Below the pieces are notes generated by a model. It did no database searches. It saw nothing but the letters and a program-made list of their open reading frames with translations, and was not told where the DNA came from. A program made the translations under genes and the position numbers. Positions 10,582 to 59,497 of a DNA stretch of 60,000 nt are shown piece by piece. Numbering within the stretch: position 1 is the stretch's first letter; the number at the start of each line of letters is the position of its first letter. The stretch comes from Bolinopsis microptera (Eukaryota; Ctenophora; Tentaculata; Lobata; Bolinopsidae). The stretch lies in contig NC_087076.1 of assembly GCF_026151205.1 (NCBI RefSeq), forward strand, positions 17,783,419 through 17,843,418. Reading direction: 5' to 3'.

Positions 10582-13500
10582 CTACTGAGCGGGAGGTATT
10601 GGTAAAGGCACTGTCTTGTCCCGCGGAACTTTGGGAGGACGAGCTGCCGAGCTATTTGTTCGTTGAGGCAGTGGCGGGGGCATGTCTACTGCTTCATCTG
10701 AAAAATGTGGAGAATGTTGAAGATTGAACACAACGGACCAAATAGTAATTTGTAATACAGCAAGGAACAAAGCTATGGTATTTTTCGGCTCAAAATTATA
10801 TGTGTGACCAGTAAAATTTCACAATAATCCATTCACACTTATCATATTGAGTAAATTAGTTATTGACTCATGTCTGATTGGGTTTTGAAAATGATTGACA
10901 ACTATGGTAGAATCAGTTGTAGCATATTGGAGATAATTGCATTCTTTTTTGTACTAAAAGTTAAAACGAATGAACTCAATAAAATTATCGAATGCGTGTG
11001 GATATATATTGTCAGTAGTAGCTTAAAAATATTCAATAATCCTAGCAGAATGATGGAATTTCCCACGCCACATAAATTGAATTTTGCAGATTCAGTGATA
11101 GCAAGTAATATAATTGGAGGTAACACATCCAATTAAAGTCATCCAATTAGGGACGGCTTTTAGCTTTATAATCGTGTTGAAACCTGAAGTGATTTACAGT
11201 GATCACCATCTTCAGTTTCAATGTCATTCCAGCGCACGCCACATCTTACTAAGAACTTGATTTCTTTTTGGCTTTACTTTTTGCAAAAACTTTAGCGAAA
11301 CTACTTTTCCGTCTTCGAGGTCCACTCTTGACAGGCAGAGGAACAGCAGGGTCGAGGTCCCCAAAAGAGACTTGACTCTGACTTCTGGTCCGGACAAACA
11401 CATTCGAATTGGATGACATGTAATTTAGGGAGATGCTACTGGTAGCCTTGGTAGTGTCAAAATCATCAGCCTCCAATTGCCCGATTTGAGTGATCAGATC
11501 GTCAAGACTGGGAGACACGTCGTCTCGAGAGTAGGGACCGTACGGTCTTTCGTTTATTATATCCAGGGCTGAGCCTAGGGTTTGGGGAATTAAACTAGAT
11601 GGACTCATACTGATCCTAGAATGACAATCAAAAAGTCAGTCTTGGTATTGGTGTTAAACTTTAGGTCATGGTACTATTGGAGCACTGGTACTTCCGTATC
11701 CCTCTAAACGAGGGTATAAAAATCGCATTATAAGTTCAATGTTGAAGTTTAAACTTGATGGGCTCACGCATACTTAAACACGTCTTCAAAAAAGTATAAT
11801 GGGGCATAACTGACTAAACCGCACCTAGCAGTAAAATTGTGACCAAGTATCCTTTATCTCATTTGATAAAGGATTCCGAGTTCCGACCATGCCACTAACA
11901 CTGCCAAAATGTTATTGTTTTGTTTTGTTTTGTACATGTTTTTTATTTTGAACTTTCACAAATAGTATATAAAATTGGGTCCGATAAAAGAATAAAGGAG
12001 AAGTACATGCGCGAATGCACATATTACATGTATTATGGTATGCATGTGCATTGTGCAGTGCAAAAATACATCACCATTTTTTATTTGATTTAGACTTCCT
12101 CAACGACTTCTTTGCGTGCAGTATGTCCTGGAGTCCTCCAATTCCTCTCTCAAGAGTTGGAGGTGTGACATACATTCCTACTGTGGCACTCCGGGGATGA
12201 GCTCCAGCTGCTGCTCCACCCCCTGAGGTCAAGTCTGAAGAGGAAACTGTCGTGGACCTTGTTGGGGTCACGTACTTGTTTTCATCATCACCCTCAGTTT
12301 TGAACGCATTGGAAAGTCGCCTGAGCCCTTTTTTAGTTGCTTCTGTGAAACTTATTTGTCGGTTTAATCCCTTTGCCATACTGTGGGAAGTTAAACTTTT
12401 TTCCGATTCATCCTCTGAATCATCAAATGGGCTCTCCAAAGAATGTTTCCCTTTCCTTCTCGGGGGAGCTACAGGAGACTTGATTTTAAACTTCTTCAAG
12501 CTCACAACAGGAGACGTTTTCTTGTTCATATCCATCACATGAACGTCAGATAACTTCTTCCTCCGAGTAGGAGACTTCTTTCCTGCTGAGGGTGAGGCTT
12601 GGGGGGTCGGATTAAGAGTCATGTTATTTTTACTAGGACCGGGGGAGGATCTAGGAGAGCTATACAAAGAGGAGAAGTTATCCTCTGGAGAGACATCTTG
12701 CTGATTGGATGCTGATTTAAGTGTGAAAGGCTGCGCTCTACTGCAAGTTGGAGAAGGTGCTGTTTGGGCGAATCTCCCGAATTTTGTGGTTGTTTCGGTC
12801 TTTTTAACCAGATCTTGAAATAATGTCAAAGGGACGTTTTGATAAAGGGTACTAGAACGTCGTAATTGTCGGTTAAATTTCCGACGTGTTTGTAAGTCAG
12901 TTTGTTCGTCAGTTGGTTCGTTGGTTTCGTCTTCCTCTGAGGGAATATGTCTCCTTTTAGTTTTCTTTTAGAACAAAGTTCAAAATATCGCCGACGATTA
13001 ATAAAATTATCTTACTAACAGCTTGAAATTAAGCCAAATGTAACTTTTCAACTCTACACAACAAGCGTTTAAACAATCCCAAGATTTAAAAGCGATCATG
13101 CAAAACCAGCTTCCATAAATTGTCACATTACAAAATAACAAACTAACCAGTTAAGACGTTGTTAGAGTTGTCAGGAGGTGTTGTGGAGCAGCTGATTTTA
13201 GGTCGCGGTGGCAGAGTAGGTACATTATTGTTAACCTGGTCAGTAATCATTATTCAATGGTTATATTTATCTGCTACATTTCAGTTGCTACGAAGATTCA
13301 TAACTGGTATCAAATCAAATAGTCAACAATCGAATGAACTAAAAGCACCATTAACCTCATGATCGTTTTCGATTGAAGTGTTAGAGAAACTCATGTCCAA
13401 AGACCCGTTACTGTTGATAGATTTCTGGCTCTCTCGCTTCAAACTTGGACTACTGTGTATCAAACTAGACCGCTTCTGTTGGAAATTCTTTTATTTTTTG

Positions 13501-13826
13501 TGATAGAAATGACAATACTTTTAAAGGAGTTTAAGTTGACAATTAACGAACAACTCGTGAGATAAGTTTTAAAAGCACTGCATAGTGTATAGTTATGTAA
13601 CCTCATCATTATTAAGTGGAGTTAACAATCTCACCTTTGGTGGCAAGGCAGGAGTGTCAGGAGCATTTGCATTAGCAGCTGAGCGCCGATCTCTGATGAG
13701 AGCTTGAGGATCTGGTAAAACTTCAGTCTTCCTACTTGGTAGAGGCGGAGGAGTAGCACCCCCTGTTACGAAGGGACTCTCTTCTCCAGAAGTTACTGAG
13801 ATCATTGAGGTTCTGCTCCTCATGTT
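10582..13826 (-). CDS. DOCK: DOCK proline-rich C-terminal tail, with two possible ends
   Basis: The tail is serine- and lysine-rich and dotted with SH3-ligand motifs: PPPLPSRK (13826-13635), [15 protein letters not shown] (13235-13148) and, in the last exon, [13 protein letters not shown]180 tails bind CRK-type SH3 domains through such sites, so a similar adaptor link is inferred. The exon ending at 12075 (donor after AAA AAA TG) joins in phase 2 to 11615, giving ...[13 protein letters not shown]. That exon either stops at 11249 (KKSSS, stop) or splices from AAAA|GTAAAG at 11278, in phase 1, to the final exon 10697-10582 ending PIPPAQ stop. Two C-termini are therefore possible. The start of the 12.9-kb exon is unresolved, as the AAAAG acceptor near 12966 does not match the preceding phase. 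Confidence 0.8.
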
Positions 13827-16800
13827 CTGAAACAAGGAGATAAGTGGTCAGGAAACTTTAGAGACTGCTAGAAAATAGGGCTCAATAGTTCTTATCACAG
13901 GACTCCTATAATTACAGGACTCCTATAATTACAGGACTCCTATTACAGGACTCCTATTACAGGGCTCCTATTTAGGAACTCAGGAATTGATAAATGTATA
14001 ATATCACACCTAAATCGAAGATGTAACTAGGTGGTTAAATACCCGTGATAAAGTTGAATTGTATCTATGAAGAGTAGAGTTAGAGGCGATGGTACTGGTT
14101 CTCATTGACCTGTACGGAGTTCCTGACGACATGCCCTGAAAATATTCCATTTTAACCACACTAAAAAATAAATTCTTTGCGATGCTTGAAATTAATGTAT
14201 AGATCAGACCAAAATCACGTGCTTGAAATCAGACTAAAACGAATCAGGGAATCAGGTTTTGACCAAATAAGGACATGTGATTTGTTGATATCTCGTACCA
14301 GTTCACGGCGGTACTTGTTGCTGTCTTGTCGCAACTTGTCATGTTGGGATGTCAGATGATCGTGAAGAGGTTTCACAGACTCTGCACACACTTTACCGTG
14401 CACATCAATACCATCCTGTAGGATCTCCACCTGTAACGTAACATTAGAGATTAGAGAAGAGTGTGTACATAATGTATTAAGAACTGCGAAAGATCTAAGA
14501 GGCACATATTATAACACACACCAAATGAATTGTTTACAAATGTTTACAAAATAGAATTAAAAAACACATTTTCTTACCTGATCAATGATGATCCTTTTCA
14601 GATACATGATATTTTCCGCATCAGCAGGATTCTTCTCGCCGTACTCCTTACAGAAGAAAGCTTCCTCGTACTTCTTGATACCTCCCTGAACCACTGCATC
14701 TATTGTTCCGTTCAGAGCCATGGTAAGAGGGTTAGCGTTAGTTTCACGCTGAGCTTTGTATCCGTCGATCAGAATGCGGAGCTCTCGGTTCTTCTTCTCC
14801 ATCGCTTCAATGGCCGTGTTGATCGGTGATAGCTCCGTCTGAAATATTGTTCAATTGGTAAATGGAATTGAATAATGACATTATTCAGTGAGTAGTTTAA
14901 AATTAACTGAACTATATTCCACTGAATTCCAGAACAAGGTGCGCACTTAGGGTAGTCAGTTAGAAGGGTTGAGTTACGGGACAAAGTCAAAACAAAAGAC
15001 GGTGTTATGGCTGTTATATCATGTTGTACCTGTTTCTTTTGTGCTTGCTGAACACCGCAGAATATGGAGGTATGTTGAAAATAAGAACACTTATCAAAAC
15101 CCTGATCATGAACTTGTTTACATGATGATATCAAATTGTCTCCGATATGAAACTTGGGCGATGATGATAATTCGCCAACATCCAGGGACTATGGAGTCAA
15201 CACCATGTGAAGACATCTATAAGACTGCAGAGTGTATTGAATTGAAGTCTAAAGGGTTCTGTAATAATCCTCAAACACAAAAATACGTGAGACAGAAATG
15301 CCCAGCAACGTGTGGAGTTTGCCAGGTAAGAAAACACTTATACAATCTGAAGCGCTGGACGTTTAGAGCTGAAATAGGAAACACGCTAGAAAACTATTGA
15401 AACCCCCTCAGAGAGCGCACGATTGTGTTGATCTGAACGATAACTGTGAGGATTGGAGAAGGATAGGACTCTGCAGCCAGACCCAGCTCACTTCCTACGA
15501 GGGGATCATAGCCAAGGAGTGCAGGAAGACTTGCTCGTTGTGTGAGGAGGACGAACCTTGTCAGGATCTTTTTACGGCCGTTCAGTGCAAGAGGTGAGTT
15601 TACAAATTATAACGGACTCGCCACACTCACAATATCACCAGAATCACCAAAGCTTGTAATTTCAAACTTGCTTATCTTCAGTTTTTAACCTTTTAGCACT
15701 TGTAATCCTACCATCAATAAAGGTATGATGATCTACCAATCACACCGATATATTTCCATCAGATTGGTAGAAATGGGATACTGTGAGACACACGAGTATC
15801 TAATGAGCAAACAATGCGCGGATTCCTGTAAATTCTGCCAGCACCGGGAGATACAGATAACACGAACTATTGGATGGAACGAGTGGGGGGCCTGGTCTAT
15901 TTGTGATGTTGTTTGTGGGGAGGGTGTCAGATACAGGTACTCCGTGGAGATATTTTAGTTTTCCTTATCAAGACCGATATTTGACCATAAATTAGGCATT
16001 CTACACTGCAGAGATTTACGTTGTGATCTAAACACAAATTTTACAGATCAAGAAGGTGTCAAGAAGGACCATGCTTTGGCGTTGTCACCCAATCTGGACC
16101 ATGTATCGTAGAAAATTGCCCTAAAGGTATACTAATCTAACTCCTTCGCCACAAATAAAAATATAGTGATATGATGCAAGTTTAAGTTTCCGTAAATTCA
16201 ATAGTAGAAGTAGTATATTTATTGAGTGAATCATTTCCTCTCAATATCAATCTCCACAGCGATCTGCCAAGGCGAGAAGGAGGACTACTGTCCTTTCCTA
16301 GAGGAACTGGGCTACTGTTCTCGACCTGACAGCACTAGATTCATGGCTAACTACTGCTCCATCTCGTGTGGGATCTGTGAAAATGTTGTGCAGGGTTCAG
16401 AGAGCGGGGTTGTGACGTCACGGTACAAGTTGTGTGTGGAGAGAGCGCTAAACAGGGTCATCTCTACTTCTCTTGACACTCTCGAGAGATTCAACGTGAG
16501 TTTAGATGAAACAGTCAAAGAGCTGAGACCGAGGTAAAAATATTGTGAATGACAGTGTAGACTGTAGATATATTTATGTTTGACTTTCCAATTAAGCTGG
16601 GTTTTTGCAGGTCGACAATGAGTTCAAAGAAGGAGTAATTGAAGAGAACCGCCTACCACTATCAGCTCAGGCCAGTCTCCGGAAATTATCAAGACAAGGT
16701 CGAGCACTGACCATTCAGGATAGACTCTTCAATGATATCGTGGACAGAACCAACAACTTATGTGGGGTGGAGACACCCGGAACTCGGGGATATATTGAGT

Positions 16801-19800
16801 CAAAACTGTTAGAATCGAAGGTGATTGAAATTTCAAGAATAGATTGCTCAGCGGTATGTACAGGACGTAATGTCGGTGAAGTATATCGAACGATAAATGG
16901 AACGTGTAACAACTGTGGTAACCCTCTCTGGGGCTCCAGTACCACGACAGTTCTCCGAGTACTGGAAGCGGAGTACGAGGATACGGAGAAGTCACTGCCG
17001 CGCGGCTGGGCACAACACGCTCCGGAACTTCAAGCTGTTCCAGAGGACCTCCTTGTACCATCAGCTAGACTGGTCAGTCAAATGTTGTTAGATGATAGTG
17101 AGATCAGGGACACACGGTTAACACTCATGCACTTCCAATGGGGACAATTTCTAGATCATGATCTTACCCTGATCCCTGAAAGTGCGGAGGCAGGAGGGAG
17201 TGTGAAATGTGAGAAGGAGTGCTCCAACACCCATCCCTGTTTCCCGATACGACTTGCAGCTTCTGATCCTATAACAAATATGACTGACGGTGTAAGGAAT
17301 TGTCTCCCTTTTACACGCTCGGCCGGGATAAAGTTCAATTTAGATGGAGCTTACCGATCCTCAAATCAGATAAATGAAGTGACTGCCTTCATAGATGCAT
17401 CCAATGTCTATGGAAGCTCTGGTTTCCTAGGACTTCTTCTGAAGGGTGAAAATGGAAATATGAGAGTTGGCGAACCTTGCGGGCAGGCCGATGAAGGACC
17501 CATGTTACCCGATTGCCCAAAAACGACAGCGACCCATTTCTGTGCCTGTGCCATTGAGGCCTGTCCCGAGAAGTATATAGCTGGAGACACCAGAGTGAAT
17601 GAACAACCAATGCTCACTCTGATGCATACTCTCTGGGTCAGGGAACATAACCGGATTGCAGAACAGCTGAGAAGGATCAACAAGTGTTGGGATGCAGAGA
17701 AAGTGTTCCAGGAAACCCGGAAGATTGTGATAGCCATGATGCAACACATCACGTACCGACTCTATCTCCCAGTGCTTCTAGGCCCTGCTGGATTCCAAAG
17801 CTACATAGGATTTGAATCTTTATACGACTCAAAAGTGCAGTCTGGGATACTCAACTCATTCAGCACGGCGGCTTTTAGATTCGGCCACTCACAGATCCCC
17901 TCAAAAATACCTCTAGTGGACTCTGACTGGAATATGGTGCAAGAAGAGCGGCTACAAGATGCGTTCTTCAGAGCCAGTATGGTGTGCGGGTGTGGGTTCG
18001 ACAACATTCTCCGGGGTATCTTACACACCCCTGTTAATGAGGTAGACCCTCACTTCTCTGACTCGGTACTAAACCACCTGTTTGCTCCACATCATCACTC
18101 CATGGGACTAGACCTGACCAGCATCAACGTACAGCGAGGCAGGGATCACGGGATACCACCCTATATCCAATACAAGAACTACTGTGAACAAAAGTACAAA
18201 GTACAGGCTAAATTCAGGAATAACGAGGAGACTGTAAGTCGAATCAAGCTTGTTTACGGTGATGTGAGCAAACTGGATCTCTTTATAGGCGGTATCCTGG
18301 AGGAGCCTGTAAACGATGGTCTGTTGGGTCCAACTTTCTCTTGTATTATTGGTGAGCAGTTTAAAAACTTGCGGGAAGGAGACAGGTTGTTCTACAGTCA
18401 CGAAGGTGTTTTCACAAAGGATCAGCTGAAAGAGCTTTACAAATCTTCTCTGAGCGCTGTGTCTTGCGATAATTCTGTTTCGGTAGATGAAGTGCCACGA
18501 AGGGCGTTCATCAAGCAGGATCCTAAAGATTATGTGGAGTGCAGCTCGTTGCCAAAAATGAACTTTGAGAAGTGGCGTGATAACGATTGCTCTAACGAGG
18601 CATAAAAGGTTCGTGGTAAAAACATACGTAGCAACAATTTTTTGATAAGTTGACCTTTTAACTATGGAATATCAACAATTTAATTAATTTAAAATCTTGT
18701 TAATGTTATTGAACGATAAAATTACTCACAACTTCTTGTCTTGCTATCTCAACAAGTCTCAGTTTGTTTGGAAGTGGCTCCACTGTAATGAACTTCGTTT
18801 TCTCTAACCATGTGTTAGCGAAATCGTCATCTGATTAAAACGTTTGAGTTAATAATACCAGATGAAATGAAATTAGATTCTAGGTAGAATTTCAAAATGA
18901 TGAGATGCCAAGTTTTAATTCTCATTTTATGAAAGTCATCTTAAGATCTCACCCTTGATTTTGCCACCGGCCTTATTAAAGCGCTTATCGTAACAGAAGC
19001 AGGCGATATCGTTAGTATCCCAGAACTGTGAGATGAGACTGGGCACATCCCTCCCCAAAAACTCCTCCCTCTCCTCCATAAGACATGTCACCTGGGGTTA
19101 CGATGATTAACTTTAGAAACAAGTAGAAATTACTAGACGTTATAGTCTACCTTGTAGGCGTTATTTCAGTTACATAGACGTTATAGTCTACTAGTACTAT
19201 AGCGGTGCAGAACTACAGATGCCTCATGTCAAAGATGGATATAAGTCAATTGGATACAAAATTTATAGTGAGACGTTGAACTATACCTTGTAAATTTGAA
19301 GGAATGTTTCAGGCGAGTCCTTAACTTCAGCAATCGGATCTGATGTGTAGTTTAAGAGAGAAGCTTTGGGGAACTGCTCTTGGAATCTTATCTGTACAAA
19401 TGACAACCTGAAAACAAAATTATTATTTGATGAAAATATTCCTTTTAGCACATTTTGCTATTTAACTACCACTTGATTTTCTATGCAACTGATCTCTATT
19501 TTGCATATTTTACATATTTCAGTATATTGTACGCACCTAGCCAGTTCCTTGGCACAGTAAATGAAGCGTTTGTTTCGGAGGAACGCTGGGAACCCTTGAC
19601 CGTAGAACCCGACGAAGAAGTAATCGTTGGGGTACCGCACAGTGTTCAGGATCTTCATGTAACCCTGAGCCTGCCGCTGGAGACCCTCTGACAGCTGTTT
19701 GTAGTCGAATATCTGGTGGTGATGTGAAGTTAAAACACAATAGTGGTAAATCAAGCCCTGTTCATTAATTTTATTAGGATAACAATTCTTTTGATCAAGG

Positions 19801-22800
19801 GTGCTGCTACCTATGATATTACCAGAACGGTGTCTTCAATTGGATGTAAATTTATACGATACTTTAAAATTTAACTTACCCCTTCATAGTAGTCGCAAAG
19901 GTCTTTGTAAAACCTAAAACTGTTCTCAAAGCTCTTGCCCTCTTCAAAATGTTTGATGATAATGTTGTGAAGTCGACCTTTTCTCTCCCGAACCCGCTCT
20001 CGCGGCAAAGTCTCGAACTTTTCCACGAACGTGATGTCTGAAAACTGTTTACAACTGGTTAGGACAAGATTGTACAAAGCGGTAAATGCTGTTTGTGTGA
20101 GTTTTTAACACGGAATTTTAGAAATAGAAATATCTGAGACCTGTAGTTTAGAGGCGTACATCTCCAGGGTGTAAGCAGCTTCTACAAAGTTCTTTTGTGA
20201 GATGTGAGAAGTGTACAATTTCCAGATGTATCTCAAATACATTTCGTGTCTGTTGAGTTCCTCGTAGAAATTCTGAAATGACCTAGCCCGTTAAACAAAT
20301 TCAAATGGGTACCTAAATACATCATTTGAAATTTAAAATTATGAAATATATAATTTTGCATTTTTTCCATAATATCATTTCAAATTCTGAACATTGACTC
20401 TTGAGTGTGTGAATATGTAGACACTAGCAAGCCGAGCACCACAGGCCCAGAGGAAGTCAACACTGTGGGGGTGGAGGAATGTAGATAATCTAGGAGGTCA
20501 GGTCATGTTCACCAGGGTGACATGTTTACAGTAGAAAGAATGTAGTGAATATGCGGCACGTGAATATGCGGCACGTGAATATGCGGCACGTGAATATGCG
20601 GCACGTGAATATGCGGCACTTGAATATGCGGCACGTGAATATGCGGCACGTGCACCGATCTGATATATTGCTCAAAATCATGAAAAGGTAAAAATAAAAA
20701 GTCGATTAAAATCAATATTTGTGAGATTACCAAGAGGTTGACGATACATAGCATCCTAGCTTCACTATGATGATCTCCTTCTCTGACTTCCCTGAAACGA
20801 TTATACAAATTTAAAAAAATTAAACAAGATTCTCTTGGAAGAATTATCAAAATGGGGTATAGCATAATACAGCAGTGGACGGTACGACGGAACTTTCCCA
20901 AAACAATGGACAGTACGGCTGAGTCATTAAAACAATAAACACTTACATAACTATAGTAAAAGACAAAAAATGTGAACTAGATAATAAACCTATAGAGGTG
21001 TTATCGCAATTCACCATTTATTTACGTAGAGAAACGTTCTTTGGTGGGGCCACTATCTAAGTTACCCTGTGTTAAACTAGTCTACCTTATTCGCGTAGGT
21101 GCTGATAGTTTAACAACAAAATAAATAATGTTATGCCGCCATTCTGTCCAACCCTTTTTGAGAATAGCTGCTGTAGTGTCCACCGCCGTAATGCCCAGTC
21201 CCAATCAAAGTTAACAATAAAGTCTAAAACTATCCTAAGATAGCTACATTGAACACTAACCTGAAGTTGAGCAAATGTTCGAGAAGAAGTTTGACACTGT
21301 TAACAAATCTAACACCGTTCTGATGGAGGGACCTGTTGATATCCGGACTGTTGAACTTACGGAGGAGGGTCTCGTACATCAACAAACTGTAGTTAGTGTC
21401 ACCTTTACCACCGCTGATTAGCACGTCCAGCTTGTCTATCACCTGGTGATACAAGACATGTTACTACTGAGATCTGAGGCAGAAAGTAAATAACTGTACT
21501 CAACACTTATATGCCTTTTCATTAGAATATTGTTTTTAAACAAAATTTGACCCTTGACACGGTGAACATGAGTGGAGAATGAATTTCTACATGTTGTAGA
21601 ATGTAGATACAAGATAATAGCCTAACGAATGCTTTAGCCTCTGTACTGTCCCACAAAAACGTCATGTGATACTGATAGAGGGAAACTTCTAAAAAAAGGC
21701 CGAGATATGAAGATAAGATGCCTTTTAAATGGAAACAGAACACCTTCTATTAGTATTCCTGCTATTTATTATATCTTTAACTTGGAGCTTCGGTATTTTG
21801 CGGTACTTGACACTAGACTTGCGATAAAAACGTACGTTCGAATAAGGACAAGAATTTTAATCTCGCATCATATTAATGTAGCACAATAATTTCCTTTTAT
21901 GTCTAAACATTTGCACATAAAATAAGTTTCAATGGTCACGCTTCGAACTTGATTAAATTTGTATGAGATTTTTAGTGTCCAGCACAATTGTAAAATGGCG
22001 TGACTGTGACTCTATTCTCTTAACAGACGTTAAGGGACCAAATGTTCCAACTTTACTGTCGTTATTAATTGAATTGTCGAGTTAACAAATTTATGTCAAA
22101 CCTAACGAAGTGCTAAATCAATAAACTCTGTTCTGAACTGTTATTTAAGTTTAAGGAGTCAAGAATTTGACACATCTCGTTGAACGCGGTTACATCATGA
22201 AATATCTACTCTTCATATCTACTTTACTTGTCGCTGCTTCAGCTCTCGACATCCAACTTGGTAAAAATTATACTGTCTATAATTATACTCTTTATCTACT
22301 ATACTACCTTTTCAAGTTTAACTAATCATTTATCACTAGCGCTTACTTAAACTTCCTCCGTACCCAGGTCGGGAGAGTGATGCTCTGGAGTACTGGTTGG
22401 GTAATGGTGGGGTGCAAGGATACGGGAGAGGTCTGGAACAGTCTGCTGACATCATGCTTAAAAACTACATGAACTCTCAGTTCTACGGAGAGGTTTGTAT
22501 TCTTTCTAGAACAATTCTGAGACAAAGTGGCTAAAATTATAGTACCGACGCGATGAGTACATTATAAAATTGTTTTACACATCTTCCCTATTCTTGAAAC
22601 ATATTCCCACAGATCAGCGTTGGTACACCACCTAAGAGGTTCAGAGTGATATTTGACACAGCTTCAGCCAACATGTGGGTCCCCTCAGATCAGTGCCCTG
22701 ACACCAACGTGGCTTGCAGGGTGAGTAGTATTATTGTTACCAGCACTTTCATCTCATTCCACCACACCACCTTGTCTATACTCAATAATAAATAGTCCTT

Positions 22801-25800
22801 TATTAGTGTTTTTCGATACAAATTTAAACGAGGTCTTCATGTCATGGAGCCAGGGTTTTGGACTGGCTTTTACCCGCATAATTATTTAAATTATTATATT
22901 TAAATTATTAAATTTTAAACAATCTCCCCAGAGCCACAGAAGATACGATTCGAGCAGCTCCAGCACGTACGTAGCAGACGGTACTCCCTTCAGTCTGGTG
23001 TACGCTTCGGGTAAACTGAAGGGGTTCCTCTCCCAAGATACTGTTGAATTGGGGGGAATTGCCGTCACCAACATGACCTTCGGAGAGGCCATGGAGCAGC
23101 CAGGATGGGCCTGGGTCACCGCTAAATACGATGGCATTATAGGTGAACACTGAACAATGATTTTATTGTTAATTTAAATAAGCAGATTTGTAAAAATGAC
23201 TATAGACCTGATACAGTGATACAGATAAACACGTGATTACCAATAATCACGTGTAGATAACTAATTAACACGTGATTACTTATTATCTCAATATTTCCAC
23301 AGGCATGGGATACCCAAGTCTAGCAAGAGGAGGCGTCACCCCACTCTTCAACCAGATGATGGAACAAGGAGTGGTGACTGACCCCATGTTCTCTTTCTGG
23401 ATCAGCAAGAACAGGACCTCCTCCGTGGGAGGCCTCCTGACTCTGGGAGGCTACAACTCTCAGTTCTTTACAGGAGATATCGCCTGGAGTGACGTATCAG
23501 TACAGGACTACTGGCAGATAGATATGGAGGGTATGAGTGTTGAGGGAAGGAAGGGAACTATCGCCTGCGATAGGGTAAGTTCTAAGCACTATACACAAAA
23601 TAATCGCGCTGAACGTTTTTAACTGATTTATACTTGTGCGTGGATAATTTGAGATATTTATTTCATTACAAACTGAATTTCTAGGGATGTGACGCTATCG
23701 TAGACACGGGTACCTCCCTAATAGTGGGACCTGTTAACGACGTGTACAGGATCAACAGCTTTATTGGAGCTAAACTGATGTGGGGTGGTATGTGGTTTGT
23801 AGATTGTGACAAGGTGGACAGCCTTCCTTCCGTCTCCTTCAGAATCAACGTGAGTAACGGACGTACGAGTCATTTTCATTGTTTAAATTATAGATTTTAT
23901 TTTGTTAAATATAGTAATCACTGTTGTTGCTTTATTACACTATATAAGGCAGTGTTATGGTGGTAACATGAACATGCAAATATGGCATTCCTATATTTAT
24001 TCAGGGTCAATCGTTCTGAAATCGCGTTCAATCTCAAATTATTAGTATCATTTCAATTTTCAGGGCAAAGATTATCCCTTCACGAGTTCTGAGTACATAA
24101 TCCCGGTTAAGACCAGCGGAGGAGTGATGTGCCTTTCAGCTTTTACCCCACAAGATATCAAATCTAAACAGGGTCTCCTCTGGATCCTGGGAGACGTCTT
24201 CCACTCTGTCTACTACACCGTTTACGACTTTGGGAACAATAGAGTCGGATTTGCAGAGGCAATTTGAAATGGAATTTAAGAAGAAGAAAAAAAACAAGAT
24301 TCTAAAAATAGTTATGTTCAAATTCAAACTGTTTTTTTGTCCCTTTCAAAAGTATAATTGTTTAGTAATCCTGGGAACCCTAGGGTTTGCATCCAGGATG
24401 GGCACAGCTGAAGTTGGAAGCATCTATCGGCCATTTGTTGCCAGATAAAGTGTACCATTTAGTATAAGTATGATCGTTAGTTTCACATCCACTGTTAGGG
24501 TCAATGAGCACATCATAGATCCCTCTGTGCTGCAACATCCAGTTATTGTCTATATAGTATGATTCAGTATTGATGATTCTTCTGAAATTAATGTCATTGT
24601 CATTTTCATCTTTTTTAATCAAACATATTCAGAATCACGATTTTGGTTTGCATCCAGAACGGTCACAGCTAAAGATGGAAGCATCTATCGGCCATTTGTC
24701 ACCAGAGAAAGTGTACCATTAGTATGATCGTTAGTTTCACAGCCAGTATTCGGGTGAATAAACACATCTTCCCCTCAAGTTCAAACCTCTTTACAAACTG
24801 CTCTCTCAGCTCCAGAGCACCAGCAGTGCGCGGCTTGTTGTTCTGCCAGAACAGCACGTGGATGTGGTAGGAGTATATAGTAGGAGCACCCTCACAGTAC
24901 CCCTCATAATCAGGGGGCTTGTAGACTGTTGTTAGGAGGTTTTGATCGAAGTTGTGTACGTGGGCCTCAAGTAGAACGGGTAGCATGAGCAGAACAAGGT
25001 ACAACATTGTGGTTCACAGAAATTAGGAAGTGGATAGTACTCATAGGTTAATATAGAAAGGAAGCAGTTCTAACGAGCTCTTCTCAAACACAAGGATATA
25101 TCTTGTGAACTTGGCTAGTATATATGAAACATTTGATATGGAGTTGTAGAGGGAGTTATGTGCCTCGCCGGGCTAAAGTAGTAGATGACCTTGCTGTACG
25201 GCAAGTTAAACAAGGATCTGAAACTACTAGGTTCCGTACAGACTCAACTCTGCACCCGTGTCAATATGTTCATTATATGCAAGCCTCTTGATTTATGACT
25301 CGAAATAGCCTGGAAATAAAGATGATGTCTTACATCAGGGGGACGGGACTAAAGGCTAAGATTTCAGCGGAAATGTAACCCAATGTAAGCCATTTCATTG
25401 AAAATTGGTCAGTAAATTACCTTGTAGTTTGCCACCACCTATAATAGAAGGGTACATTTCTGATTTCTGACACCTAAAGCTAATCACTCTGAACTATTGA
25501 CATATTTTGCTGGCTGTGTTGCGTCTTTTTGGAGCCTGAGAATAGTCTTAAGCATTCCTTTAGTAATTCCTTTAGTAATTCCTTTAGTAATTCCTTTAGC
25601 TTAGTAATTCCTTTAGTAATTCCTTTAGTAATTCCTTTAGTAATTCCTTTAGTAATTCCTTTAGTAATTCCTTTAGTAATTCCTTTAGTATTCCTTTAGT
25701 AATTCCTTAAGTAATTCCGTTAGTAATCCTTTAGTAATTCCTTTAGTAATTCCTTTAGTAATTCCTTTAGTAATTCCGTTAGTATTCCTTTAGTAATTCC

Positions 25801-34136: not shown

Positions 34137-34167
<31 letters not shown>

Positions 34168-43100: not shown

Positions 43101-46100
43101 TCCAAATTTAAACCACACCAGTTAAATTCTTAATTTATTATGCATGTTGACAATTTATTGAGTAACTAATTTCAGCCCTACAAATTCTGGGTTAAAGTTT
43201 GATTATCATATTAATGTTTGGTCCGGATTTGTCAGTTGTAAATTCCATCGCATTATTGTATACTCAATCAAATTAAGCTGTTTAGTTTCTGCTGATTGAT
43301 TTTGATGTTATGTATGTAAAATGATTATCTTATCAGTTAAAACTCACTATTGAACATGGTTTTGAATTGCGATCTTTGAGACATAATATATGGCCCATTA
43401 TTTGTTTCTCGTTTATACTCGACTCTATTCTCAACTTATAAAAGAAGATTTAGCAGGGAACCGCGCATTAGAGTTTAGCAAATAGCACATTTAAGCCGCT
43501 ACACAGCTAGGTAACAAAAAAAGATCTACTTCGTAACTAACTTCGCTAGATATAAAGTATACATATATAAAGTATATATTATATAATATACTATATTATG
43601 AGTATTGCTGAAAGCACAGTGTAAGGCCTACACGGACCGCCTCTAACTAGCCAATCCCTGTTTACATGCCGTGTAGCAGGGGACTATATCTCTACTATAA
43701 TTCAAAGAATTGTTTTTGTTGTCTGTATGTACGACCGCCCACGTGCAAATTATGTAAACAAATCCAATTACATCAAACGTTGGCATGGTACATACATTTT
43801 AATGTGATCGCACGTGCAGAATTTGCGTGTGAATGATTGAATTCTAAGACGCGCTAAAACTATGCTAAAACTCTTCCTGGTATATATATAAAGGGGCTTG
43901 CATTCGAAATAGTGTCGAGAACAAGGAAATTTTAAGAAAATAGTTTGGTTGGAAAATTGAAAAATAGTTGTGGGTCCGTTAGTGAGATATCCATTGAATG
44001 GCCATACTGAATTCTTCTGTCTCAGCAAACCACCACTCTACATTGTATTGACGTCTCTTCTATCTCAAAACCAATCGCTGGCCCCCACAAACCTCCTTTT
44101 TAGAACCCACTGCATTGCCAAAATTGGCCAAAAAACCTCAGATTTAGGAATGGACTCAACTCTCAAGCACTTTTGTCAGAAAACAGCAGACAGGTCAATC
44201 ATGATAAACACAGATTCATACATACTATTATTTTTGCAGAAAAATCATCTCAGAATATTTCTAATGAATTCAACGTTTTAAAAATCCCAAAATAAAAAAT
44301 AAACTAAACTAAGGCTAGATAGTACTGCTCCTTCATTGTTTTTTCTTAAATGTAATCGTTCGATATCGTAAGATTGATCTAAACCACATTCGTTTCGACT
44401 TTGGGAGACATTTTCTTCGATGCTATTACTCCCGCTGTGACAGATTTGCACTTAAAAATGTTTCTTATTTTTCGGAAGACGATAACCCTGAGTGAGTTGG
44501 TTGTGAGAAGGTAAACTAGTGGGGAGCAGCTGATCATCACCTGAAGTAGAGAATAAAACAGGTCGAACAACACGGAAACACCCCCTCCCTCCGCAAGCAT
44601 TTCTGTCACCTCAACCTCAAACAGCATCATGGCAGCCCAGGGAAGTGTTGTAGTGATGGACACAGCTAAAATGGCAATAATCGACCATGGGAAGGATCTC
44701 CGCTCTGTTTTCTCTTTTCGGCCGGCTTTACTTGTGCCAGTTGAGGTGGAAGATGATGAAGTCGAGGAGAGTTGTTTGTGAGATTTTCTAGCCTTAAGAG
44801 CCAAATTGTAGATGTAGCCGTATAGGCAAATCACTGCCAACACAGGAAGAAGGAACCCTACTGACAGCAGTATGCTGAAGAAGATTGTACATGCTGGCTT
44901 CTTTTTGTCTCCTTGAGTACAGAATACTAGCCCAGATTCGTTATCTCTTATATGTTCCGCTGGACAAAGCCCAAAAAGAGGTATTGCCGAAATGAGGCTG
45001 CATATCAGGCATGCAGCACCAAAGCCAAGAAGCTGGATCTTTAACTTTAAGTAGTGTAGATACGATAGAGGGTAAGTCAGAAAAACACTCCGCACGATAG
45101 AGATGATCATGATGGTGTATCCGGGTAGGATGATGGTAAATGCTTGTACTGCTAGTTTTATTTGGCACCTTGTTTCAGATCCTCCAGAGAAGGCCAGCTC
45201 CACAATCCAGGATCCTGTCAGAGTTACCAAGAGGAGGAGCTGAGATATCAGGTAAAAGATTACTGAGATGTAGATTTCTAGAAGAGATCTGAAATGCTTG
45301 TAGATTATGTAGAGCGAAATAGCGGATGAAGCTATGAGGGAAATGTAGCTTGGGATTATGATCCATGGAGTCACCTTTAGGTTATACTTTTGGTTAAAAG
45401 GATTCGGGGCATCTTCGCTGTCGTCTGGTATGACGAATGGTCTTGAGGCCGATGATGTTGAGCCCTCTGTCCAGACCGATGATGTTGAGGTTGATGTCCA
45501 AGCAAATGTCGTTGAGCCTACACTAGAATATGTAAAAAATTGACTCATTAAAAACAGAGCAATCTATTAGAAATTTTTAGAATAGCTCACTGAAATTTGA
45601 CTTGGTTAACAGAGTACCTTCTTATTAAACTATTTTTAATTCTTTAGCTAATTGGCGCATGACCTAGTTAGTGTAGTAACACCTGCTCCTTCATGTGCCG
45701 TAAATAAACGGTTGAATCTTTATCAGATGGCATGTGCTCTAAATGTGCTCACGACTCATTGTGTTAAGGATAATATCGGTAATTTGAGTTTCACCGAAAT
45801 AATCACGACAAAAAATTTGCGGTTTTTCTGCTGGTACCATTTTTATATCATCGCAATGATTTGAAGACTAATCCCCTGGAAGTTTTGCTGTGCAATAAAA
45901 TTAAGTATAAACTATACGATGAAGTATGAACACGTGTCACGACTAACTAAGTGCAATGACTGAATTTACGCGGTGCGCCCATTTCAGTGATTAGTCAGGC
46001 TACAATGGATATAAATTTATAATTATAATCAGTTGGTGCCCATGCCCTATGGTAGTATCGGTTAATGGTTATGATGCGATGAGGGATGAAGTCTAGCTAC

Positions 46101-49100
46101 TATTACTCATTTGATGTACCTTTTGCTCGACGTAACCGAAACAATATACTCAAATTATCAATATTTTCTGTGAAATTACAAAACATACCTCTCTTTCGAC
46201 AATCTCGAAGTTCCCTCTGTCGCGATGGTAGCACTCGACCATGTCAAAGAAGATGGGGATAACTTCTTTTCTAAGCGACTCCAACGGTACCAGAGTTACT
46301 TCCAGGAAAGGACCGACAATGTCCGGTATAAATATCTTCTTGTTGTCACCTGAGTAATAGAATGTACTAATGTAATAGAATCGAGGGTTAGGGCGTAAAA
46401 ACTTGTCGATTTTACAAGATAAGATAACATAAGATAATATTACTAATTTGTACGGGTATCGGCCTTACAAAATGACAGGCCTCACAAAATGACAGCCCAC
46501 ATAGACCATGCTGTAGCTTAGGTTCCCTATACATTGAACCCTATTCCTTTTACTGTATGAAAGAAAAAGCATTAATTAACACTTCCCAAGGAATGATAAT
46601 GAGTTTTGAATTTAACCCCAGAAAACCAGGTACTACCATGACTTATGTCAATCAAAGACTACTCTGGTCAAATAAAAAAACTGATTTAGTGACTTTGGTA
46701 GAAGAAATGACAAAAAAATGACCTAGCCTCACAAAATGACAGTGTTATGCCTCACAAAATGACAGTTTTATTTTATGATACAAAGATGGCATATTTATAT
46801 TGGATGCCCCTTGCCTAATTATTGGTATTCTTAAACCCAGTAAGCTCATGATGAGCCTAAATGTGTTTGTTTGATCATCAATTTTGATCAAAATGCCTCA
46901 CAAAATGACACCGAAAAGCCTTACAAAATGACAATGTTTCAGATTGAATTATTTTCATCATCTTAAATGGATCAGAGACAGTCAATACAAGAAGGAGTTA
47001 AAAATAATCATAATCTGACAGTTAACAATCAAGTAGCATTAAAAAAGTGCAGTTCTGATATCAAAACTTTTATTTCAAACTCTTTGATTTCAAACTCTGA
47101 TTTCAAAACTCAACGAAATAAAGCTTCTATTTTGTGAAAGCAGAGAGTAATAACAACTCCTAAAACATGTCAAACGTTAACTAAACACTGAAAAGTGATC
47201 TATCCAGTCATAGAAAATATCAAATATAACCAAATACTGTGTTCAAGTATGAAAACAAAAAATGATTTTTACGCCTCACAAAATGACATTTTTTAAATTT
47301 TTTCAAAGTATAAAAAATGTTCCTTTTTAAATATATTTTGGTAAAAACAGAACTGGTATAATATAAACAACATATATATCTAACAGTAAGACACGTGAAA
47401 GAATAATGAAACTTTTTCCCAAATCGGATTTGAAGTGATGCCGTTTTGGGTTGTCATTTTGTAAGGCACTATCTCACGCGAAATTGCCCAACATTTTTTA
47501 ATCATCCTTTTTCCTGTAAAAGCTATTCTAATCTTCAATCTATTATATTTATCTAACTGTCCTAGGTGAAATCAAATTTCTATAGGCTGCTGTTAAAAAA
47601 TGACAGCCGTGACGAAATTGTCATTTTGTAAGGCATGTTTTTTTGGAAGATTTCAAAGATGACAATTTTTATCGCAAAATTTACGGGGTTTCAATCAAAT
47701 CAACCCCCGGGAAGAAAAATATACCTGTTGAACTACCTATCTGGATAATAAAACATGAACAAAACTCATTTTTGTGCATTTTAGAGCCATCTCCTTTTTC
47801 GTGTCATTTTGTAAGGCCGATACCCGTAAGATTTAATGTTACATATATAGAGAAAAGATTTTTCATTTTAATCTGTCGAAAATCGAAACTCTGTGGGATA
47901 ATTGTCGATTGTCGAATACTGATGACCGCACAAGAATTATCATCTTTCCATCAACCCAATAGTTAGCTTTACTCCGCCTCCATATTTCAATACTCCCAAT
48001 ACAAATAGTGACTTGTTACTCAGCAACACTGAACTCACCTAGTTTATTGAGCATTCGGACCATCTCCTGCCCCATCTCGCTCCTCATGTCACCGTACTGT
48101 CCAGCGATCTTCTGACGTTTGGTCTCCCGGAACTCCTCGAGTTGCAAGGACTCTTGAGTGATGAACCCGACACACAAGTAGAAGAAGTTCTCCCACAGCT
48201 GAAATTATTGGGTGGTTAAGAACAGCCTTTTTATTTCTTTTTTATTAACTTAATTTTTATTGTACGTGATTCTGTATACGGTGCACATGGTAGGTGATGC
48301 TACCACATTATTATATGGATATTACTTTCAAAGATAAAGATAGGAAAAGTATCCAGCTGGTCGAAATGGTCGTACCAAAAACCTAACATCATCCATTTTG
48401 CCATAACTTTTCGGAAAAGCGGTTTTATGCTATGCCTTGGGGGATGATTCGGAATCAGCGTCAAAATCAACATAGATTCATGATAGTTGCATACCATAAG
48501 GGCCCTTTTACATTTTCTGAGTTGGGTGAGCGATCAATTAGATGGGTAAAACTAAATATTGTATAGAATTCAGCATTTAAAATCTAATAAATCGAATTTT
48601 CTTATCAGTGCCCGCAGCATTATATAACATGATTGATTGTAAACCGAGACGGTGCCCGGGTGGTTCTAATGACCAATTTTAATCTTAACAAATATATAGT
48701 AAACATATTAATAATCCCTTACAAGGGCACTGCACACTTAATAGGAAAATGCCACACTGTGTAGATCGGCAACTTTACGATGGAATTAAAACTTATCGGA
48801 CAAATATCGCGAAAACTTAAAGTTTTGTATGCTCCAACGGCCAGAATGAATGACTCAACAAACAATTTTTTTATTTTTCTTGCTGATTTGAAGGCCATTA
48901 AGGCAATTGACCCAGTCAAAAAGTTAAGGTTAAAGTTGATGCCGTGGTGTCAGTAAAATGGTACGGATGTATATTATACCCATATATATATGATGATTTG
49001 GCCTTAATTTCAGACACCATAGAGCAAGTCCAACTTCTGCTGACAGACCTTGCAAATGCAGCCGCACAAGTTGGTCTTGCTATGAATGCTTCTAAGACCG

Positions 49101-52100
49101 AGTTCATGACCATCAACATCCCTGACACTGTCGACTTACATTCTATCTCAGGCCTCCAGATTAAACAGGTTGATGACTTTAAATACCTCGGCTCTTTCAT
49201 TGCGGACAGTAGAAAGGATTTCAACACAAGGAAAGGAATGGCCTGGTCAGCCTGTATTAAACTGCAAAAAGTCTGGTCCTCTGGCATTTCCGAACAACTG
49301 AAAGTCAAGTTCTTTAGAGCCTGTGTCGAACCAGTATTGCTCTATGGATCAGAGACATGGACCATAAACAAACAGCTTGAGAAACGCCTCAACGGATGCT
49401 ACACCCGTCTTTTAATGAAGGCCAAGAACATTTCGTGGAAGAAGCATCCAACCCTCAAGCAGATCTATGGCAACCTTCCATCTATTGCCTCAGTGGTTGC
49501 GTCGAGGCGTTCCAGATTTGCTGGGCATTGCATGAGAGCTTCTGGCCAAGTTATCTCCACTATCCTCCCCTGGCGACTTGCCCAATCGGGCCGTGGAAGG
49601 AGACCACTCACCTTCCTGGACGTAGTAGCTCGTGACACTGGGCTCCAGTTAGACGACCTTCGAACTGTTATGTGCGATCGAGACGTGTGGAGGCAGACAG
49701 TGAATGGGATTTCGATTGAGGATCGCCCAAAGTAAAAAGTAAGTATATATATAGGTACAATATATATCCGTACCATATATGGTATATATATATATATTAT
49801 ACAGGGTGGGCCAAAAGTCATAGACACTACAAATTTAACTAGAAAAATGATCTGATCAAGTCCCAGATTCCACAATGCTGATAGAAGAAGGTATAGAGTC
49901 TTTAAAATCTTTGGTCGTTATCACGAGATCAAGAGTTCCTACTTGATTGTGAGTTCTTTCTAGTGGTACACATTGAATGAAACCAAGCTGACCAAGAAGG
50001 GCAAGAAACTTTGCGGAATAAAGATCTTTAGGTCTTTCAACATGTAAATTAAAATCCCCTGTAATCAGGGTTCTTGGCTTACCGGACAAATCACACAGGT
50101 CTTCACTGAATTTTTCTAAGAAGTGGCACTCAGTGTACCTGGCCATGATATAACTCTGTTATCTCACAAATGAAGGCCATAGTCTGTCCTGCATTTTTCT
50201 ACAAACAAAACGATAAAAACAAAATCCTAACTTCATCGTTTTGCCAATAAAGTTTCAGAAAAGTATTTTTCATCTTATGCCATGGGGTGATTCAGAATTA
50301 GCATCCAAAAATATATAGATCTATTAAAGCTGTATAACTTTAGGACCCATTCAAAAAAATTTTTTATCATCTCGAGCGATTTACTGCACATGTGCACAAT
50401 GTACTGCACATGGCGACCAAATTATGTGGATATTACTTTCAAGATAAAATAAGGAAAAAATTCAGTTCTTGTTAAATTGTTCGTCCAAATTTCTCACGTG
50501 ACTTATTTTTATGTCATTCAGCGATAAAAACAAAACCCTAACTTAATCGTTTTTCCATTGAAGTTTTGCGTTTTGCGTTTTCATCTTATGCCATAAGGGT
50601 GATTCAGAATTAGCAGCCGAAAATATATCGATCTATTTAAGTTGTAGAAACTTTATGACCAATTCAAAAAATTGTTTTATCTTGAACGAGTGATTTAGTA
50701 GTAGCGCAAATATAGCATAAAATTTAGCGTTTACGTTGTTCAGACTCAGCGATAAATCGAATTTTCTTATCAGTAAATTCAGCATTATATAGCACCTGAG
50801 CGCAAGCAAAAGTTTACTAAATTTCATTTTGACGTTCATCATGTTACATTTCTTCATTCTGCTGTTCGTTGGACTGTACTCTGAGGCAGCCACCAAAGCG
50901 GACCCAGAATGCTACATGAACCCGAGTCAACTAGGGGAGAAATATGGCTACACCATGGAGGAACATTGGCCCGTCACTGATGACGGATACATCCTTCTCA
51001 TCAATCATATTGTACCTAAATCTAAGAGTGCACCGGCTGTTTTCTTAATGCATGGTTTATTAGACAGTAGTGCAACCTGGCTACTCAATGGCAAGGAAGG
51101 TTCGTGTGATTTGTTATCTAGATAAGCAATCGATCTTTTACAGAATTTGCACATTCACATTTTTCTTGGGTAACTAACAGATTATGGGTTAGATAAAAAT
51201 TCTCAAATTACAGGTACATGAACCTCGACATGTCAAGAATCGCGATCTATGAGAGTCATAGCCCAGCAGGTTAGATTATTACCATATTTTATTACTTAAA
51301 AATTGAATAGCTTAATTCAAGGTTACCTAGTCAAAATACTTATTGAATCATGATACCTGAAAAATGTCCGGGTAGATCGAACATCAGACTTTTTCCTAGG
51401 AACGAGCACGAGGAATATAGTTCACTGGTCTCAGATGGTAAATGCTCAGAAACTCCAGAAGTATGATTACGAGAGTGTTACCAAAAACATGCTTCATTAC
51501 GGCTCACCCGAACCACCACTTTATGATATTTCAGGTTGGAATCTCTATGAACTAGATATCATTATTCTGATTAATTTTCAATTACTACAAATCCCTATTA
51601 TGTTATCCCGTTTACAAACTAAAGCCCGTATCCTTTAATAAGATTCTCAAACGATTCCAAATATTTCAGGACTTTCAGTACCAACAGTTCTCGTGATGGG
51701 AGGAAATGATTGGCTGGGTGACCCACGTGACCAACTTTGGTTAATCGAACAGATCGGACACAAGGTGGTAGAGTTCTTAGCCATCGACCACTACAACCAC
51801 CTCGACTTTCTCTGGGGAATAGATGCACCGAAAATGGTTTACCATCCCATGATTGAGATCATGAAGAAGATGTTGTAGGCTGGGCTGAACTCTATTATGT
51901 ACTCCGATGATGACCATTATTTCTTATGTATTGTAACATTGATGTGTTAATAACCTCTTTGTAAAAGTTTGGTTTTTTTCTTTCCAATATAATCTGAGGT
52001 CCATTAGCCTGGGGCTGTATCATAGAAAGAGTTATTTTAATAGTACGTGATTCTTTATACGGTGCACAATGTACTGCACATGACGACCAAATTATGAAGA

Positions 52101-55100
52101 TATTACTTTCAAGATAAAATAAGGAAAAAATTCAGTTCTTGTTAAATTGTTCGTCCAAATTTCTCACGTGACTTATTTTTATGTCATTCAGCGATAAAAA
52201 CAAAACCCTAACTTAATCGTTTTGCCATTGAAGTTTTGTGTTTTGCGTTTTCATCTTATGCCATGAGGGTGATTCAGAATTAGCAGCCGAAAATATATCG
52301 ATCTATTTAAGTTGTAGAAACTTTATGACCAATTCAAAAAATTGTTTTATCTTGAACGAGTGATTTAGTAGTAGCGAAAATATAGCATAAAATTTAGCGT
52401 TTACGTTGTTCAGACTCAGCGATAAATCGAATTTTCTTATCAGTAAATTCAGCATTATATAGCACCTGAGCGCAAGCAAAAGTTTACTAAATTTCATTTT
52501 GACGTTCATCATGTTACAATTCTTCATTCTGCTGTTTGTTGGACTGTACTCTGAGGCAGCCACCAAAGCGGACCCAGAATGCTACATGAACCCGAGTCAA
52601 CTAGGGGAGAAATATGGCTACACCATGGAGGAACATTGGCCCGTCACTGATGACGGATACATCCTTCTCATCAATCACATTGTACCTAAATCTAAGACTG
52701 CTCCTGCTGTTTTCTTACAGCATGGTTTATTAGACAGTAGTGCAACCTGGTTACTCAATGGCAAGGAAGGTTCGTTTGATTTGTTATCTAGATAAGCAAT
52801 CGATCTTAATTAAAGAATTTGCACATTCAAGTTTCGGTAACTGACAAATTATGGATTAGATAAGAATTCTCAAATTGCAGGTTATATGCCAGCAAATTAA
52901 AGCAATAAGACCGACACATAAAAGAATCTTTCAAACTCTACGATTTCAGGTAGTTTTGCGTTCATTCTGGCTGATGCTGGGTTTGACGTCTGGATGGGTA
53001 ACATCCGTGGAAATACTTACACCATGAACCATACCACTATACCTGTCGACTCTGATGCTTTCTGGGCATTTACATTCGATGAGATGATCGCAATAGATCT
53101 ACCTAACATGATAGATTATGTGCTCAAAAAAACTGGACAAGACAGTTTGTTCTACTTTGGTCATTCTCAGGGATCCCTTATAGGATTCACTGGATTCAGC
53201 AGGTTAGTTCAAAATGCAAATAAACTTATTTCCACACGCGGTATACAAATCAGCTAATTACTTGCTATATTTTAAAGATTTTTAACCATAATAACTGCTA
53301 TAAACATATTTATTTTTCAGCATTCCAGACCTAGCAAAAAAGATCCGACTTTTCACGGCTCTGGCACCTGTGGCTAGGGTTGATCACGTAAAAGGACTTT
53401 TTGATTATCTGTCACGATACCAAAGCTCTCTTGAGTGGATTTTTAAGGAATTCGGATTACGTCAATTCCTTCCAAGGTTGAAAATACTTCACATAATTTT
53501 TATTACTCCCAAAGTCTTATAACATAAACTAAAACACGTTATCAAATGTTAGAAATCCGTAGAGCAATTATAGATTGGTTAGAAAGACATTACTCTCACT
53601 ATTTTCAGTAATTGGGTTATCCGGACATTCGCAACGTTGATTTGTCCCAACGTAGAACTAAAGGCAGTCTGCTCAAACCTTATCTTTCTGATGGCTGGAT
53701 ACGATACCTCAAACTTCAACAGCTCTAGAGTAGCGATCTATGAGAGTCATGTCCCAGCAGGTTAGATTAACATGATAGGTTTCTCCTCTATAACTAAACT
53801 TAAGATTAAATGGCTTATTCAAGGTTATCTCGTCAGAATACTAACTGAATCAAAATGTCTGAAAAATGTCCGGGTAGATCTGAATTGTTACAGCAGAATT
53901 TTTCCAAGGAACGAGCACGAGGAATGCTATTCACTGGTCTCAGATGATAAATGCTCAGAAAGTCCAGAAGTATGATTTCGAGAGTGTTACCAAAAACATG
54001 CTTCACTACGGCTCACCCGAACCACCACTTTATGATATTTCAGGTTGGAATCTCTATGAACTAGATATTATTATTCTGATTCATTTTCAATTACTATAAA
54101 TGTCATGTCGGCCGGGTGGGTGGTGGTAACACGGTCGCCTCCCAAGCAGAAGGCCCGGGTTCAAATCCGGTCGGATGCAAGTCGGTCAGTTACCAAGCTG
54201 TGATTTGGTACAGCTTCGGCTGGTGATACACACCCTCTGGCTCGTGGGACTAACCCCCCTACCGCTTGTATAGTGCCTCGGCACAGAGTGGCTTAGGGTT
54301 ACTGAAAAGCTGAAAAGGAGATAAGCACCTCAGGCCATCCCAACGTTCGGGAGAGACCTGCCCTTGTATCTTGTATCTTGTTGTATAAATCCCATATATA
54401 AATTATCATGTTACTCCGTATTATATAATATATCTTTTAATGAGTTTCATAAACGATTCCAAATATTTCAGGACTTTCAGTACCAACAGTTCTGGTGATG
54501 GGAGGAAATGATTGGCTGGGTGACCCACGTGATGAGCTTTGGTTAATCGAACAGATCGGACATACGGTGCTAGAGTACTTTACCATCGACTACTACAACC
54601 ATCTGGACTTTCTCTGGGGAGAAGACGCGCCCAAGATGGTTTACTACCCCATGATTGAAATCATGAAGAAGATGCTGTAGATTCCAACTGTTGACCAATA
54701 TCTTTTATGTACGTTGTAATACTGATTTGTTTAAACTAAAATTACCTGTTTTTTCTTGCCCATGTAGTCCTGGGGTCCATTAGCCTGGGGCGGTATCTTG
54801 GACAGAGCTTTTGAGAAGAAAATTATCGAGTTTAACACAACACTGAAAAATAAATTTAGTAATACTATAAATAATAAAATTTCCCAAAATAACTTAAAAA
54901 GATTACAATATGTTATCTGCCATTAAGGCAAACAAAGTAAACAAAAACATATTGTGACTTACTAAGATTGAAGCATGCTCATAACGATCCAGCGTGGTGG
55001 GTAGACGTTGCTTTTAACAAGATCCTTGAATACCAAAAACACTTCGTTCAGGAAATCCTGAGTGGAATCAGGTGAAAGGAACAGATCAGATAAATTTGAT

Positions 55101-59497: not shown

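Follow-up and report, generated by a model that had tools for sequence, protein, structure and literature searches.

The window analysed here, a 60,000-nucleotide stretch of Bolinopsis DNA (C5:17783419-17843418 in the searched genome of 264,652,675 bases and 232 contigs), holds on its minus strand one long host gene and, within the introns of that host, a set of smaller genes and gene remnants (Table 1). Judged from its translated exons, the host is a single DOCK-A-like gene of 66.6 kb, which continues beyond the window end and begins about 17 kb outside it, where it adjoins an ORC3-like gene; coordinates 60001-80000 are our numbering for the 20 kb next to the window. The joined exon translations of the 3' half matched DOCK2 (5.6e-85) and DOCK5 (1.2e-80) in the PDB, and those of the 5' half DOCK5 (1.1e-62), DOCK2 (1.1e-32) and DOCK1 (1.5e-21). 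Both DHR-1 and DHR-2 are most like those of DOCK1/2/5, with DOCK2 and DOCK5 as the best PDB matches and DOCK10 and DOCK6 far weaker, although this comparison does not separate DOCK-A from DOCK-B, as the matches included no DOCK3/4 chain. Members of the DOCK-A family are Rac activators.

Table 1. Features of the host gene and of its nested genes (positions are those of the window)
Feature	Positions	Strand	Basis and remarks
DOCK-A-like host, part in window	10582..59497	-	5' exons extend to ~77176 outside window
Host intron, 3.9 kb, with peroxidase gene	14839..18729	-	phase 0
Host intron, 24.7 kb	21443..46188	-	phase 0; guide residue 1127 on one side, 1128 on the other
Host intron, 6.5 kb, with lipase copies	48199..54745	-	read by eye, exon 54746-54842 to exon start 48198
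Host exon	54746..54842	-	54746 to ~54807 duplicated together with lipase
Peroxidase gene (ShK domain and animal haem peroxidase)	15421..18605	+	Pfam, exon model; first exon not determined
Aspartic protease	22197..24267	+	Pfam; modelled 7 exons, 382 aa, open, hydrophobic N-terminus
Block copy 1 (protease 3' end and truncated dioxygenase)	24119..25059		
Truncated dioxygenase copy	24702-25013	-	within block copy 1
7TM-like copy 1, intronless	28979..30238 (open frame 28973-30235)	+	open frame
Block copy 2 (with frameshifted dioxygenase)	30551..31646		
DOPA-dioxygenase copy, longer but frameshifted	31112-31600	-	within block copy 2
7TM-like copy 2	41775..43019 (open frame 41751-43016)	+	open frame; 96% protein identity to copy 1
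Rhodopsin-like receptor (7tm_1)	44379..45548 (gene 44382-45563)	-	Pfam 7tm_1
Lipase copy 1, without its middle exons, in which the GHSQG motif lies (probable pseudogene)	50793..51875	+	
Lipase copy 2	52511..54680	+	Pfam; modelled 6 exons, 391 aa, open

The order of the host exons was read with a DOCK1 guide sequence mapped onto the locus; its matches are collinear on the minus strand, starting at 77176 and ending at 14314. An SH3-like N-terminal stretch was located solely via this guide, and the host exons after 14251, which make up the C-terminal tail, were read as open frames only, the motif PPPLPQR being seen in one of them. Guide residues ~123-138, 184-255, 284-379 and 784-856 were not located along the locus, and for this reason the host model lacks some exons and sets no limits to the 5' introns; a lone 206-aa host frame gave no PDB match. 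In the genome, all six matches listed for the TPR_DOCK family sit at the DOCK locus, a weak point for uniqueness, and all three listed for DHR-2 lobe A lie on contig C3 and none at this locus, although the very stretch of DOCK that went unmatched aligns to DHR-2 of DOCK2 once its translations are joined; the DHR-2 gene on C3 is in turn absent among the TPR_DOCK matches listed. Such family searches miss divergent copies split into exons, and therefore cannot prove that this is the sole DOCK-A gene or count the DOCK genes.

Our junction solver was restricted to GT-AG introns, so that canonical ends are obtained by construction and the evidence for a junction is the continuous DOCK protein across it. 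The guide matches flanking the 24.7-kb intron overlap at residues 1126-1136 since both extend into intron sequence; once the splice sites are applied (GAG/GTATGT..CACCAG/GTG, best junction score 8.4), one exon ends at residue 1127 and the next starts at 1128, well inside a conserved stretch. The best score at the 3.9-kb intron (GTT/GTGAGT..TTTCAG/ACG) is only 0.6, and the host protein stays in frame over all three long introns. Across the 24 neighbouring exon pairs the solver found no junction for four (5-6, 11-12, 15-16 and 22-23), of which pair 15-16 is bridged by the exon at 54746-54842 that was then read by eye and pair 22-23 has a candidate open frame between its members; at three others (4-5, 12-13 and 19-20) the best junction scores fall below zero. 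As the 24.7-kb intron separates adjacent guide residues, we take its two sides to be one gene. That two DOCK genes, or an assembly misjoin, meet within it, as its length alone might suggest, is barely credible and was ruled out by the consecutive residues on its sides, its good splice sites, their equal phase and the absence of any N in the window. The sequence-only reading, which had claimed a single DOCK-A gene of at least 49 kb and the three long introns of Table 1, and had named two distinct genes or a break in the largest intron as fatal to it, is thereby borne out by the PDB matches, the collinear guide and the in-frame junctions, with each of the intron ends recovered.

Six nested genes look intact in that their coding sequence is open, namely the peroxidase, the aspartic protease, the two 7TM-like genes, the 7tm_1 receptor and lipase copy 2. 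All six lie between host splice sites and each wholly in one intron (the first exon of the peroxidase excepted), and five run opposite to DOCK, the receptor being the one on its strand. The earlier count of at least six complete nested genes thus stands in number but not in membership, for the DOPA-dioxygenase that it included is frameshifted; that pseudogenes accompany them (lipase copy 1 without its middle exons, and the truncated and frameshifted dioxygenase copies) and that most of the genes are antisense to the host both proved correct. The peroxidase covers the full An_peroxidase model (4.3e-162) and has no close relative among the genome matches listed, the next being 52% identical over 67 residues, while the receptor matches 7tm_1 at 1.2e-10 (41.7 bits vs a cut-off of 30.5). 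Eukaryotic aspartic proteases carry two D-T-G catalytic motifs; in the nested protease (22613-22720) the first reads DTA and the second DTG, and, given this substitution, the predicted enzyme may be inactive. The longer dioxygenase copy spans positions 1-93 of the 106 of the Pfam model and is one base short towards its end, which leaves the end of the protein out of frame. Hydrophobic N-termini, judged by eye, would be in keeping with secretion of the protease, the lipase and the dioxygenase. Two further candidates, a 504-aa frame and two adjacent 7tm_1-like frames, lie between host exons in 5' introns outside the window.

The 7TM-like copies each display hydrophobic peaks that, merged by eye, form seven groups, and we call them 7TM-like only, because neither of the two matches Pfam 7tm_1; a structure model built from two sequences reached a pLDDT of 38.5, too poor to use. 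They belong to a dispersed family with 47 genome matches, two of which are the nested pair itself, and no close relative of the pair appears among the matches listed elsewhere in the genome, the next being 28% identical over 349 residues. When eight further family genes, which account for 10 of the other 45 matches, were aligned with the pair, four of the ten members matched 7tm_1, all of them among the eight. Between the nested copies dN/dS is 0.37 (Fisher p = 0.012), a selection test based on 29 changes, of which 13 are synonymous and 16 non-synonymous.

Comparison of the window with itself uncovered three gene-bearing sets of local copies, one with the 7TM-like pair (27.2-30.5 vs 39.2-43.3 kb, 93-94% identical), one with the dioxygenase copies in the protease-dioxygenase block (24.1-25.1 vs 30.6-31.6 kb, 97%) and one with the lipase pair (50.4-52.0 vs 52.1-54.8 kb, 79-96%), together with smaller sets free of genes, for example 32.1-32.7 vs 33.3-33.8 kb. 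The lipase duplication enters the host exon at 54746-54842 and reaches 54807, and because the copied unit thus takes in part of a DOCK exon, the lipase pair must have arisen in place, inside DOCK. In two lipase exons dN/dS is 0.26 (p = 0.04) and 0.16 (p = 0.00005), values that compare the open copy with a presumed pseudogene.

The protease-dioxygenase block has, in addition, a counterpart in inverted orientation some 100 kb away (C5 17700337 to beyond 17704134). This outside block carries two dioxygenase frames, 190 and 197 aa long, which cover positions 1-105 of the 106 of the Pfam model. It also carries a remnant of the protease that contains stops; of the protease exons, 1-3 and 6 were not found there and exon 4 is only a scrap. 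The two places are hence in complementary states, with the protease intact in the DOCK intron and the dioxygenases intact outside it. In both intron copies of the block, a common junction joins cluster positions 9090 and 6950 and leaves out the body of the second dioxygenase, and because they have this junction in common, the loss of the second dioxygenase predates the duplication within the intron. Between the inside and the outside place, the dioxygenase copies are separated by a dS of 0.02 over 150 codons, a recent divergence. Wherever a history could be read, for the protease, the dioxygenase, the lipase and the 7TM-like pair, copying took place at the level of DNA, by segmental and tandem duplication, as follows from the non-coding flanks included in the copies and from the introns that protease and lipase keep. 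Retroposition was considered for the protease, the lipase and the dioxygenase and rejected, as the models of the first two retain introns and the 200-bp upstream difference that might have marked a dioxygenase retrocopy shows no GT-AG ends. A 12-bp minisatellite of ~65 copies occupies 25554-26328, between the two dioxygenase block copies, and an inverted repeat at 32835-33208 (124-base arms, 87% complementary) is found within the direct repeats at 32.1-32.7 and 33.3-33.8 kb.

The most probable account of the locus, and one that we hold with considerable confidence, is that of one 66.6-kb ctenophore DOCK-A-like gene whose long introns contain ordinary nested intronic genes, with the copies made as DNA. 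An inverted segmental duplication of the protease-dioxygenase block, followed by complementary decay of the two places, explains what is left of it in the intron and outside; the lipases stem from a tandem duplication in place that included a piece of host exon; and the 7TM-like pair and the dioxygenase copies stem from local duplication as DNA within the introns. We infer that every nested gene has a promoter of its own from which it is transcribed and that the DOCK transcript is spliced around the nested genes, whose position inside introns would be tolerated rather than selected for.

How far DOCK differs from its surroundings was assessed against five 40-kb control windows, picked by position (10.00-10.04 Mb of contigs C1, C3, C5, C8 and C10; GC 37.6-38.9%), with window positions 15-55 kb as the test region. 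Frames of at least 150 aa number 1.75 per 10 kb in the DOCK region and 1.75, 0.75, 1.00, 2.00 and 2.25 in the controls, while DNA duplicated in pieces of at least 150 bp makes up a fraction of 0.377, including the 0.8-kb minisatellite, vs 0.123, 0.051, 0.078, 0.100 and 0.105. Gene density is thus ordinary, and local duplication is high relative to this small set of five windows. Ten control frames were scanned, two long ones per window, with three longer ones passed over (piece boundary or window edge); four fall into families of cellular enzymes or regulators (SAND/MYND, two tandem methyltransferases and a 2OG oxygenase), one is a reverse transcriptase, one is repetitive with mixed matches and four gave no match.

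It is accordingly quite probable, in a reading that overlaps with the account we favour, that any large introns in this genome would hold genes at ordinary density and that there is nothing special about DOCK. The frame density lies inside the control range, tandem copies such as the two methyltransferase genes occur in the controls too, and early work on human and fly attributes nested genes to large introns (PMC8467205). What this reading leaves unexplained is the excess of duplicated DNA over every control, bearing in mind that the controls are only five windows picked by position. The earlier suggestion of an expansion site accordingly survives for the three gene-bearing sets that were duplicated locally, and is not borne out by the density of open frames, which shows no excess of genes over these controls.

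The sequence-only reading had gone further and proposed a recurrent landing site, which would make the DOCK introns a place that attracts or retains incoming genes beyond other places. We regard this as rather unlikely. The three local duplication sets, and a level of duplication above five of five controls, would be in keeping with it, and the protease-dioxygenase block does have a clear counterpart outside; yet this block is at most one putative arrival, so that recurrence is not apparent, and no close donor was seen for the others, the peroxidase and the 7TM-like genes being without a close relative among the genome matches listed. Nor is a common origin implied by the mammalian cases that might be called upon, since DOCK6 and DOCK7 belong to a DOCK subfamily different from DOCK-A; the genes that they host, ANGPTL8 and ANGPTL3, encode secreted proteins. 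Mammalian DOCK6 hosts ANGPTL8 and DOCK7 hosts ANGPTL3, each on the opposite strand (PMC4284785). These cases resemble our locus in that a DOCK gene harbors an opposite-strand gene, and differ from it in that each of these hosts has one nested gene and the families are unrelated.

The geometry of the gene ends raises a different possibility, namely that transcription of nested genes over host exons reduces the output of DOCK, or that DOCK transcription does so for the nested genes, such that their expression becomes mutually exclusive. Of the six intact genes, all but the receptor are antisense to DOCK, and the peroxidase and lipase converge on host exons with 124 and 65 bases from stop codon to exon, each one base short of the distance given earlier (125 and 66); neither AATAAA nor ATTAAA occurs between these stop codons and the adjoining exons. 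However, the chance of finding no hexamer in gaps of such length is 0.78 and 0.88, and 7TM-like copy 1 is likewise without a hexamer in the 765 bases downstream of it, which means that genes here may not need the hexamer as a rule. The distances would fit antisense overlap, a suggestion drawn from geometry alone; the hexamers, which we had considered as evidence for it, are explained by chance, and such coupling appears very unlikely. The two convergent ends nonetheless mark a place where antisense overlap could occur in a ctenophore.

The first plus-strand hexamers past the host exons (ATTAAA/AATAAA at 18834 and 54849) lie in the host acceptor tract read backwards, and host splice acceptors may thus supply antisense poly(A) signals, an occurrence that is at chance level here. 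Start codons were also scanned for upstream acceptors of a trans-spliced leader, by which same-strand genes could be released from the host transcript; the best score was unremarkable in six of seven genes including DOCK (percentiles 0.16 to 0.83), a strong score being confined to the frameshifted dioxygenase copy. Highly improbable, in our estimate, is the broader proposal that DOCK introns form a repeated home for secreted and receptor genes in distant animals, kept there via convergent antisense timing of a Rac activator.

Among ctenophores, the arrangement as such is already known, nested intronic genes being common in this group, and the locus is a rich example of it. In Hormiphora californensis, 1654 host genes contain 2357 nested intronic genes, 484 genes are doubly nested, and 12.24% of exonic bases belong to nested intronic genes (PMC8527503). 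As in that species, the genes described here each reside wholly in a single intron, occur on both strands with several in one host, and in some cases lie beside transposable elements; the host drawn there as an example has four nested genes, compared with six intact-looking ones in the window part of ours (PMC8527503). What sets the present locus apart from that account is that the duplication history of some of the nested set has been worked out (PMC8527503). Outside ctenophores, 12.4% of genes are nested in the glass sponge Aphrocallistes vastus, whose authors consider ~10% nested exonic bases normal across animal phyla; that genome is a compact one of 80 Mb, whereas the Bolinopsis genome has 265 Mb and long introns (PMC10282587). 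The DOCK locus thereby offers a worked case of how nested genes originate and multiply, with complementary decay of two places and a piece of host exon carried along, and in the case of the protease-dioxygenase block the intact protease remains only inside another gene, DOCK.

Some minor features of the host introns may be added. The 504-aa frame in the 5' DOCK intron outside the window (C5:17849972-17851483) has no Pfam match and 24 genome matches listed including itself, the long ones with 71-84% identity on contigs C12, C10, C5 and C1; some of these relatives contain stops, and the frame represents a multi-copy family that is possibly mobile. The lipase intron holds a reverse transcriptase fragment at 48911-49732 on the plus strand (RVT_1, 29 bits vs a cut-off of 29.6) and, at 49859-50158 on the minus strand, a frame that by eye only is endonuclease-like, and the two are probably pieces of LINE-type elements.
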